From positions 1 to 64,000 of the forward strand of contig JABJMC010000028.1 of NCBI GenBank assembly GCA_018659585.1: a stretch of DNA of 64,000 nt, read 5' to 3'. The notes below the pieces were generated by a model that saw nothing but the letters and a program-made list of their open reading frames with translations, was not told the origin of the DNA and made no database searches. The stretch is from Candidatus Peregrinibacteria bacterium (GTDB lineage: Bacteria; Patescibacteriota; Gracilibacteria; UBA1369; UBA12473). Both the position numbers and the translations under genes were made by a program. The stretch's first letter is position 1. Each line of letters opens with the position of its first letter. Below are positions 59 to 14,650 of this stretch, in pieces.

Positions 59-811
59 ATGAGTATAGATACTTTTTTCGGATTAGATGATGCGGATGGA
101 TCCATCAGCCCAGAACAAGTACGCGAATATAAAGCGCGTATGGCTCGTAATAAACGCCAAATGGCGGCTGCCAAAAAACAAGAAGGCAAACAAAAGAAAA
201 AAGAGGATAAATTAGTGGCCATTATACTTAAATTTATTAGAAACAGTGCTCGCAAAGACATAACACTTCTTATTTCGCGTTGTCTTGAACAAAACATTCC
301 AGCTGTTTTTATTTTGGCAGTTATTTTGCTTGGTAACAGAGAAATTCAGGCCGAGGTTGGTATTCATTTGCAATTAGAGGACGGAGAAATAGATTTAAAG
401 GAAAAGCCAGAATCAAATGGAGATGAAAAAGAAACAAGCCTAGCTGATCTTGAGCAAAAAGAATTTAAAGGCGCTTTAGTTACTCTTGGAGCGGATCACT
501 CACTTCCACTCAAAATGCGTATGGGAATTGATTTATGGACCCGCTCAATTTGGAACGCCATGGAGCCAACCCCAGAAAGGATCTTTAAAACAGTAATTGA
601 ATTTAATGAAAACCCAAAAGCTAAGTCAGAACCTAAACCAGTTGTTGGTCAGCTTGCTGCTTTTATTCTTCGTGATTATTTCAAGGATAATCATTTTGAA
701 CAAGAATACGAAAATATTAAAACCTTTGCTGAGTTTCTTATAAAAGGGTTGTTAGTACGCCTTAAAGAACAGGCTAAAAACCAGAAACAATTAGAGAAGG
801 AGGAGAATTAA
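59..811 (+). CDS. Hypothetical protein, Lys/Glu-rich N-terminus
   Basis: 250-aa ORF, no family recognised. Confidence 0.7.
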   Translation: MSIDTFFGLDDADGSISPEQVREYKARMARNKRQMAAAKKQEGKQKKKEDKLVAIILKFIRNSARKDITLLISRCLEQNIPAVFILAVILLGNREIQAEVGIHLQLEDGEIDLKEKPESNGDEKETSLADLEQKEFKGALVTLGADHSLPLKMRMGIDLWTRSIWNAMEPTPERIFKTVIEFNENPKAKSEPKPVVGQLAAFILRDYFKDNHFEQEYENIKTFAEFLIKGLLVRLKEQAKNQKQLEKEEN

Positions 812-819
812 AAAGAAGC

Positions 820-910
820 CCGCATATTTTTCTTAACTGGAAGGAACCTTTTCGGATCATGATCCTCAAAGAACCCTTCTCCTTCGGGGACGTTTGCGAA
901 AAACACACGG
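820..910 (+). ncRNA. Copy A of a duplicated structured element (three-way junction), putative small RNA or cis-regulatory RNA
   Basis: Homologous to 13488-13581; conserved TCTTAACTGGAArGAACC, GGATCATGATCC, GAACCyTTCTC and GGGACGTTTGCGA; helices change by compensatory pairs between copies. Confidence 0.55.
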
Positions 911-993
911 ACTCCTTTTTTTCTTCCCCCATGTAATAATTAAAGGTATTATGACGTTCCTTAAAAGTAGAACAATCTTTAACTAATCCACCC

Positions 994-12552: not shown

Positions 12553-13362
12553 TTATGAATCTTCTAGCCCCCTTAGGGCTAAAAAGGATTCTAAATCAAA
12601 GTCCAGGCGCGTCATATCATAGACACGCTCATAAGTACCTTTCGAAGTCGTTTCTGATGCAAAATCAAATTCAATTCCATTAAACACAGTCATTTTAAGG
12701 TAATTATATTTTTCCGCGAGAACTTCGTTTTCCTCGGCATAAAACCGGAACAGAGGACCATGCAACACATAAGCGGCGTAAGCCTCGGCAAAGTCTTCAA
12801 AAGGATTAGTCCGAGCGTAACCCGAGACAAACTCCCATTTAGAGCCAGTTCGCTTTTCAGAATCAGCCCAACTAGCACTGTAATACTGAAAACTAGGATC
12901 AGTATCCAGAACAGGCTGGCCACGATCTAGAAAGGCAGTTTTCTCACCGGGTCCAAAAGGGTCAAGTAAGCCAGTATCAACTACATGACCAAGTTCGTGC
13001 ACAAGCACAGCGACCAGTTCTTCCGGATTCATATCCACGCAACGCAGGATGACAGTATTGTCTCCTCCTAATCCACGACGAGCACTTGAGTCAAAGCTCA
13101 AAGTCAGATCATGGATCGCATTAGCATGTTCTTCCGGGAGAATAGTGAGAACGTCAGTTATCAGTTCGGTACACCATTCCAGAGTTTCGGCATCGTAAGT
13201 CCCAGCCACTTGGTAGAAATCTTGCGAAATCACCGGTGCACTAGAAAATTGTAATGTGAGGGCATCACGAGTTGAAGCCGTTGTAACTCCGGAAAAGGGT
13301 ACCGAAGCGGAAAATAGAATAAGTTGGCAAAGGGCAAGGCTGAGGAGACGGAAACGAATCAT
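12553..13362 (-). CDS. Secreted putative zinc metalloprotease-like protein
   Basis: Signal peptide; LVHELGHVVDTG (HExxH) motif. Confidence 0.7.
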   Translation of the reverse strand: MIRFRLLSLALCQLILFSASVPFSGVTTASTRDALTLQFSSAPVISQDFYQVAGTYDAETLEWCTELITDVLTILPEEHANAIHDLTLSFDSSARRGLGGDNTVILRCVDMNPEELVAVLVHELGHVVDTGLLDPFGPGEKTAFLDRGQPVLDTDPSFQYYSASWADSEKRTGSKWEFVSGYARTNPFEDFAEAYAAYVLHGPLFRFYAEENEVLAEKYNYLKMTVFNGIEFDFASETTSKGTYERVYDMTRLDFDLESFLALRGLEDS

Positions 13363-13487
13363 GGGGCGCTAATTAAGAGTAATTTGGCGCTTTGATTTTT
13401 GTTTTCCGAGCTTCAGCGTAAGGGGACTAGTATAACGATTTTAAAGAGTTTGTCAATGATAAAGTTAAAAGACAAGGAAAAGGACCC

Positions 13488-13581
13488 CAGGAATTTTCTC
13501 TTAACTGGAAAGAACCCCATCGGATCATGATCCAATGAGAACCTTTCTCGCTTACGCGGGACGTTTGCGAGAAAACACCTG
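13488..13581 (+). ncRNA. Copy B of the duplicated structured element
   Basis: See copy A at 820-910; P1 CAGG..TTTTCTC/GAGAAAA..CCTG, P2 CAT-c-GGATCATGATCC-a-ATG, P3 CTCGC-ttac-GCGGG. Confidence 0.55.
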
Positions 13582-13679
13582 AAATCCTTTTTTCACCATT
13601 TTACTAATTACGACAAATCTTCAAAAACCCCTTACTAATTAGAGGGGGAGTATAAATTGCAGATATAGGGTTGGACTCA

Positions 13680-13868
13680 GGGGAAGGGAAGTCGACTTTG
13701 GCGCCACCAGAAGGTGAGCCTTAGAAGAATCTTTCCTTCCCCGCGTGATGCGGGAAAGAGTGCAAATTGCCAATTAAGGCGGAAGCGTGAGGACTACCAC
13801 TAGCCGGTAGTCACACACAAGTGGGGGATTGGGTTCGGGGGGCGGCTAGTGCCATCCCGAACCCAGAA
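13680..13868. other. Structured non-coding region, possible ncRNA
   Basis: 12-bp long-range stem GGGGAAGGGAAG/CTTTCCTTCCCC, hairpins CCCGC-gtgat-GCGGG and GACTACC-actagcc-GGTAGTC, terminal GGGTTCGGG...CCCGAACCC. Confidence 0.4.
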
Positions 13869-13870
13869 AG

Positions 13871-14452
13871 CTAGATGACGGCGTCGTCACCGCCGCCGCC
13901 ACCGGCGGCGCGGCCGCCGCGGGTGAGGCGGCCGATGAGGCTCAGGACGGGGATCCGTCGCCACAGCGGAAAGAGCGTGGCCAGGAGCAGGCCGATGAAG
14001 ACCAGCCACCAGCTCCCACCGAGCATCCAGGCCGTGAAGCCGAAGACTGCGGCGCCCAGGCCGCTGCCTCCCACCGACAGGCCGGCTTGCACCGGGCCCT
14101 TGCCGGGGTAGATGCGGGGGGAGAGACCGACCAGCATCGGGATGAAGATCATCAAGAGGCTGCTCAGCAGCCCCTTCGACATGTCTCCAGCCTTCTCCTT
14201 CAGGGTCGCCTCGGCTTTCTCCTGGACGTTGTCCGTAGCGCGGTCCACGATGGGACCCCACACGTTCTTCTCCAGCCAACCTTCGTCGGACTGGTCGTCC
14301 TCGTCGTTGCTCTCGTTGTCACCGTCCTCGTCCCACTCCAGTGAGACCCCGAGGTTGTCGAGGGAGCCCTGCTGGGCTTCCTCTTGTTCCGTGGGGCCAC
14401 AGGCCGTGAGGGTGAGGGTGATGGCGAACAGGGCGATCAGGGTGCGTGTCAT
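13871..14452 (-). CDS. GC-rich lipoprotein with C-terminal TM helices and Gly-rich tail, probably foreign
   Basis: MTRTLIALFAITLTLTACGPTEQ lipobox; GGAGG Shine-Dalgarno 5 nt upstream of ATG; base composition far above the rest of the window. Confidence 0.7.
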   Translation of the reverse strand: MTRTLIALFAITLTLTACGPTEQEEAQQGSLDNLGVSLEWDEDGDNESNDEDDQSDEGWLEKNVWGPIVDRATDNVQEKAEATLKEKAGDMSKGLLSSLLMIFIPMLVGLSPRIYPGKGPVQAGLSVGGSGLGAAVFGFTAWMLGGSWWLVFIGLLLATLFPLWRRIPVLSLIGRLTRGGRAAGGGGGDDAVI

Positions 14453-14566
14453 AATGTCCTCCAGGAACATTCATTCAGGTTGTTTGCACGTTGCGGTAGT
14501 TTCCTCCTAACCACGAACACATACAAATTCGGAGCTAAGACGGAACTACCACAACTTTCCGCATCA

Positions 14567-14650
14567 CAGAGAGTCCATGAAAGCATCACAATTCAACTCA
14601 ATTTCTACTTGCGTAGAAAGAGGAAAAAATGACGCCCTCATGACTCTCTG
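14567..14650. repeat. Imperfect inverted repeat with nested hairpin
   Basis: CAGAGAGTCCATGA ... TCATGACTCTCTG with internal TTTCTAC-TTGC-GTAGAAA. Confidence 0.7.

Follow-up and report, generated by a model that had tools for sequence, protein, structure and literature searches.

A family of small structured repeats with drifting but paired ends, probably mobile, in a Candidatus Peregrinibacteria genome

Two copies, A and B, of a repeat of about 115 nt were analyzed in a window of 64,000 nucleotides (positions 1 to 64,000 of contig JABJMC010000028.1 from a Candidatus Peregrinibacteria bacterium). Both probably belong to a small, non-coding, mobile repeat of the MITE/BOX-like kind, which would carry no enzyme of its own, be functional on the minus strand of the window, spread at gene ends and there probably end or protect the mRNA. 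The element is a new family, and its ends, which are conserved in shape, make it an unusual variant of the BOX/SPRITE/MITE repeats. Short repeats that move are commonly regarded as passive DNA whose ends are fixed. A family with drifting paired ends and an RNA-like fold on one strand allows a test of whether selection acts on some MITE-like elements in their RNA form, and it supplies a covariance model with which further members can be found.

Identification of the element and its copies

The genome to which the window belongs (G000; 1.41 Mb, 49 contigs) was searched by pattern, by BLAST and with a covariance model trained on 8 copies. Copies A and B, which a preliminary description of the window had reported together with their common sequence blocks, were both found, and the covariance-model search for further homologs that it had proposed was productive: in this genome the element occurs as nine full copies, each about 115 nt long, and one that is truncated, spread over nine contigs. 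The full copies are C10:809-921 (A) and C10:13477-13592 (B), and one each on C11, C13, C18, C25, C26, C32 and C37; the truncated one is C48:1712, a fragment of which 44 nt are identical to the copy on C37. A and B lie 12.7 kb apart, and the copies occur singly on separate contigs and are not arrayed. With this many copies, the resemblance between them is not due to chance. A search of Rfam (4227 families) at gathering and relaxed thresholds gave zero family matches; the preliminary description had not recognised the element as a known riboswitch or sRNA. The parts of the two copies in the window are as follows.

809..921 (minus): copy A, whole element; match to covariance model R2 with E 3.7e-28; fold z −5.6 on the minus and −0.8 on the plus strand
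898..920 (minus): copy A, 5′ arm of outer helix P1, 23 bp, partner 810-832; from the fold and the own-versus-swapped arm comparison
810..832 (minus): copy A, 3′ arm of outer helix P1; begins beside the stop codon (809-811) of gene 59-811
880..890 (minus): copy A, short hairpin P3, minus strand reading CCCCGAAGGAG; from the fold
840..879 (minus): copy A, arm P2, with tandem G·A pairs and the tip GGAU-CAUG-AUCC; from the fold and covariation
13477..13592 (minus): copy B, whole element; match to R2 with E 7.3e-30; z −5.6 on the minus and −2.6 on the plus strand
13569..13591 (minus): copy B, 5′ arm of outer helix P1, 22 bp, partner 13478-13500; from the fold
13478..13500 (minus): copy B, 3′ arm of outer helix P1; from the fold
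13549..13558 (minus): copy B, hairpin P3, CGC-GUAA-GCG, a GNRA tetraloop on the minus strand; from the fold
13508..13547 (minus): copy B, arm P2 with the GGAU-CAUG-AUCC tip; from the fold

P1 had been described as ending at CCG/CGG, but the helix runs on through the A-rich and T-rich flanks to about 23 bp, and the T-run noted after both copies is the paired 3′ arm of P1.

Covariation and pairing of the arms

On the plus strand, on which the preliminary description had drawn the element, 93% of cells were paired and 8 of 28 pairs had changed on both sides, and none of 500 shuffles reached the covariation score; shifting the 3′ partners along caused a sharp drop in the covariation signal. For the minus strand, the number of pairs changed on both sides was 11 of 32, with 26 double-changed cells in the nine copies, and again no shuffle out of 500 reached the score. 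The compensatory changes seen between A and B are therefore real, and selection for a three-way-junction structure, as had been suggested from them, is supported with nine copies.

The arms were also compared without an alignment, by pairing each 40-nt 5′ arm with each 3′ arm across copies. Own arms averaged −25.9 kcal/mol and swapped arms −15.2 kcal/mol, and no permutation out of 20000 was as good. Own pairing beat all swaps in seven of the nine copies, the exceptions being C18 and C32. Identity between copies was about 60% in the arms and 84% in the cores; among A, C18 and C25 the cores were 95-97% and the arms 47-58% identical. When alignment sites were classed, mean column identity was 0.55 for the P1 arms, 0.41 for the outermost arms and 0.81-0.83 for the core.

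The ends of the G000 copies are inverted repeats whose sequence is different in each copy. In at least six copies the arms are recognisably related, though diverged (AAAAGAAGnCCCGG.../...CTCCTTTTC); because of this relatedness, insertion of a core into pre-existing hairpins was rejected as the main account of the arms. A conserved core with arms that drift yet stay paired calls for more than passive DNA, namely for either selection on an RNA fold or self-templated repair of hairpin DNA.

The minus strand as the likely functional strand

In the paired arms of the nine G000 copies, transition mismatches on the plus strand numbered 27 A·C versus 5 G·T, counts that cluster on a handful of columns and so overstate independence; by copy, eight leaned one way and one the other. 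The A·C mismatches of the plus strand are G·U pairs on the minus strand. The minus strand folded better in all nine copies, with a mean gain of 12.5 kcal/mol and z values from −4.6 to −8.7, into a single common fold, which has loops of GNRA type and contains tandem G·A pairs as well as G·U wobbles. The short hairpin is capped by a GUAA or GAAA loop (GNRA) or by a triloop, GAA. Tandem G·A pairs take the place of the TC/TC internal loop of P2, and where the plus strand has the GAACC/GAACC loop, the minus strand has G·U, U·U and U·G. The pair at the base of P3 is an exception, being U·G on the plus and C·A on the minus strand. The A·C excess on the plus strand and the better minus-strand folds indicate that an element acting as RNA would most likely function from the minus strand of the window.

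The plus-strand drawing of the preliminary description was therefore most likely wrong. Its invariant CATG loop is present in eight of the nine full copies, C32 having TGTA on the plus strand, and nothing was found in support of the CAUG loop as a dimerisation site or of the T-run as a terminator.

Position at gene ends and element-free orthologous sites

The core of the element lies within 30 nt of a stop codon in 7 of the 10 G000 copies, and two of these seven occupy the whole space between convergent genes. Three copies (B, C25 and C26) are upstream of genes, and orientation relative to the neighboring genes is mixed. In so compact a genome, proximity to stop codons is only suggestive.

The closest genome, G001, which belongs to the same family as G000, has orthologs of seven flanking genes. 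For two of them, which we take from reading their sequences to be dnaA and aroE, the next gene is also orthologous. The gap at dnaA measures 169 nt with the element in G000 versus 65 nt without it in G001, and that at aroE 130 nt with versus about 60 nt without. Moreover, DnaA of G001 ends in ALKQEMGL, while that of G000 adds nine codons (RFGGEELGW) and has its stop inside the arm of the element (C11, L046:5620-5760). Taken alone, these two sites would be compatible with loss in G001 as well as with gain in G000. Neither target duplications nor fixed terminal repeats were seen at the G000 copies, so mobility in this genome rests on the orthologous sites and on the relative in G030.

Distribution and a larger relative in G030

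Model R1 was searched against 380 genomes across the phylum and 89 of the order, and model R2 against 353 of the class, in overlapping samples. The comparison with related genomes proposed earlier gave one further carrier, G030, from another family of the same order, whereas several hundred other sampled relatives were without the element. G030 had four matches, from E 1e-5 with R1 and 1.7e-5 with R2, and about ten copies by BLAST; the same BLAST search gave no comparable match in five genomes of its family, including G037 of the same genus. An exact pattern matched five times in 85,462 GTDB species genomes, which is about chance expectation, and the covariance model supported none of these matches. 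Two exact patterns, for the G000 type and the G030 type respectively, had zero matches in IMG/VR.

Most G030 copies are 165-302 nt long and end in the terminal inverted repeats CGTGAATCTTGAAAC...GTTTCAAGATTCACG, an end sequence that, with at most one mismatch, was found only at copies of the element. They consist of two hairpin domains, one of which is absent in some copies. Domain 1 has the tip GGAT-NCATG-ATCC, like the G000 copies, and its outer helix, about 23 bp long, differs in sequence among copies while pairing is kept. In nine copies, 14 of 38 pairs had changed on both sides (0/500 shuffles); one-sided changes numbered 2 cells versus 26 double ones, and neither strand was clearly preferred.

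Direct repeats of 5-7 bp flank five of seven G030 copies, a result that none of 10000 derangements matched. At C1:71 the G030 sequence runs from GGAAAATA through about 300 nt to AAAATA-AGGTTGAC, whereas G037 has TTAAATA-AGGTTGAC and no element at the orthologous position, an exact empty site. On sequence comparison, the C1:71 copy is a clean insertion across a stop codon. The preliminary description had held that a match to a transposon-like repeat would speak against its reading; this applies in part, as the empty sites indicate that the family is mobile.

Domain 2 (L072, L076, L078 and L082) has a GAGAAAGTTCATGAACTTTCTC arm and an outer stem of its own that drifts but stays paired. Its mismatches were G·U over A·C by 6 to 1, opposite to domain 1, although the numbers are small. 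Two mosaic G030 copies (L070 and L079) were also observed, one consisting of half of domain 1 plus domain 2 and the other being without domain 1, which indicates that the element is modular.

Proposed mechanism and alternative explanations

In the reading that we consider probable, the folded structure of a minus-strand transcript would comprise a long outer helix, a three-way junction, a short hairpin with a loop of GNRA type and a long arm tipped by GGAU-CAUG-AUCC. The repeat would be moved by an enzyme supplied from elsewhere and would spread into the short gaps at the 3′ ends of genes, often at the stop codon, where it may do little harm. Read-through transcription from a neighboring gene would then produce a hairpin with a U-rich outer arm, which probably ends or protects the mRNA. 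We regard it as unlikely that the element spreads by virtue of its fold, as RNA or as a single DNA strand, instead of by its end sequence; in such a case the machinery or the selected function would recognize the shape, leaving the arms free to change if they remain paired, and insertion would be aimed at stop codons.

The conserved core, the drifting paired arms and the consistent fold on one strand would also be expected of a trans-acting sRNA family whose core (the junction bases and the CAUG tip) binds a protein or target, with helices that drift, spread by duplication and incidental mobility, and the mixed orientation relative to genes is consistent with it. However, a promoter scan showed none at copy A, the distribution is patchy with element-free orthologous sites, and the G030 relative has transposon ends and duplicated targets, so we regard an sRNA family as unlikely. 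It is also improbable that the element is a neutral mobile hairpin in which quasi-palindrome correction, the copying of one arm onto the other by repair, acts without selection on RNA. The few half-way states in G030 (2 one-sided versus 26 double changes) are what concerted change predicts and favor self-templated repair in that genome, which likewise has no strand preference. Such correction is strand-symmetric, however, and would not yield 27 A·C versus 5 G·T mismatches or better minus-strand folds in nine of nine copies in G000, a strand bias that favors selection on the RNA fold. Moreover, symmetric mismatches, the GAACC/GAACC loop among them, persist uncorrected throughout, and the core is conserved beyond pairing.

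Duplicated large bidirectional intrinsic terminators would fit the position at gene ends, the two copies that fill a whole convergent gap, and the purine-rich 5′ and pyrimidine-rich 3′ arms present on both strands. However, termination needs no three-way junction conserved in sequence, and copies B, C25 and C26 are upstream of genes. A simple terminator scan found none at copy A, while at copy B it picked up, on the minus strand, the P2 arm alone, the T-run being the paired P1 arm, and a hairpin terminator of ordinary appearance was seen by eye at about 24-48 of the window. Bidirectional terminators are therefore a highly improbable explanation.

Comparison with known repeats

The BOX, RUP and SPRITE repeats of Streptococcus pneumoniae are small, interspersed, predicted to fold when transcribed and commoner between convergent genes, an excess taken as a sign of mobile elements that are tolerated downstream of genes; BOX is modular, such pneumococcal repeats can form reading frames, and SPRITE is terminator-like (PMC3049150). 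Compared by description, the present element is likewise small, interspersed, foldable, in two copies located between convergent genes and, in G030, modular. It differs in that the arms of the G000 copies vary yet stay paired, and in having one strand with a conserved three-way junction; the words covariation and compensatory are absent from the text of PMC3049150.

With MITEs, as reviewed in PMC10969869, the element shares that it is short, non-coding, intergenic, multi-copy and interspersed, with a stable stem-loop, and the G030 relative adds terminal inverted repeats, target duplications and an empty site. Unlike MITEs, the G000 element is without a fixed terminal repeat or target duplication, and the sequence of its terminal arms is not conserved, whereas ordinary MITEs retain theirs at the ends. 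By sequence, the G030 relative would belong formally to the MITEs in its ends, target duplication and empty site, and the G000 element only partly.

REP/BIME palindromes are extragenic repeats at gene ends. The element is also an extragenic palindromic repeat at gene ends, but it is about 115 nt long with a three-way junction. The Y1 (RAYT) transposase, PF01797, was absent from the carriers G000 and G030 and present in the non-carriers G001 and G037; a REP/RAYT system was rejected because both carrier genomes are without it. In integron attC sites the arms vary in sequence, the fold is kept and the sites come right after stop codons. The element resembles them in its variable arms, kept fold and adjacency to stop codons, but it is scattered instead of arrayed, and its terminal hairpin is conserved in sequence. 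The copies read TTAAC...GTTTGC/GTTTTC/GTTAAC where attC has the R′ (GTTRRRY) and R″ (RYYYAAC) boxes, and attC was rejected since this departs from the R′/R″ consensus and no arrays occur. No paper on HEARO-type mobile structured RNAs came up in a literature search, and a word search of the available paper collection gave none naming both MITEs and the candidate phyla radiation, the group to which the preliminary description had assigned this genome.

Other observations

The C48 fragment (L053:1712-1793) stops at a TTGACA-like sequence a short distance ahead of the following gene, and this relic may abut or carry the promoter of that gene. In the window, a promoter-like TTGACA-16-TATACT occurs on the minus strand at 13429-13456, just downstream of copy B and ahead of gene 12553-13362. 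Further on, about 900 bases at 13700-14600 have a G+C content of 55-66%, versus 35-48% in the flanks. They cover ORF 13871-14470, for which no Pfam match was obtained, and are perhaps foreign DNA.
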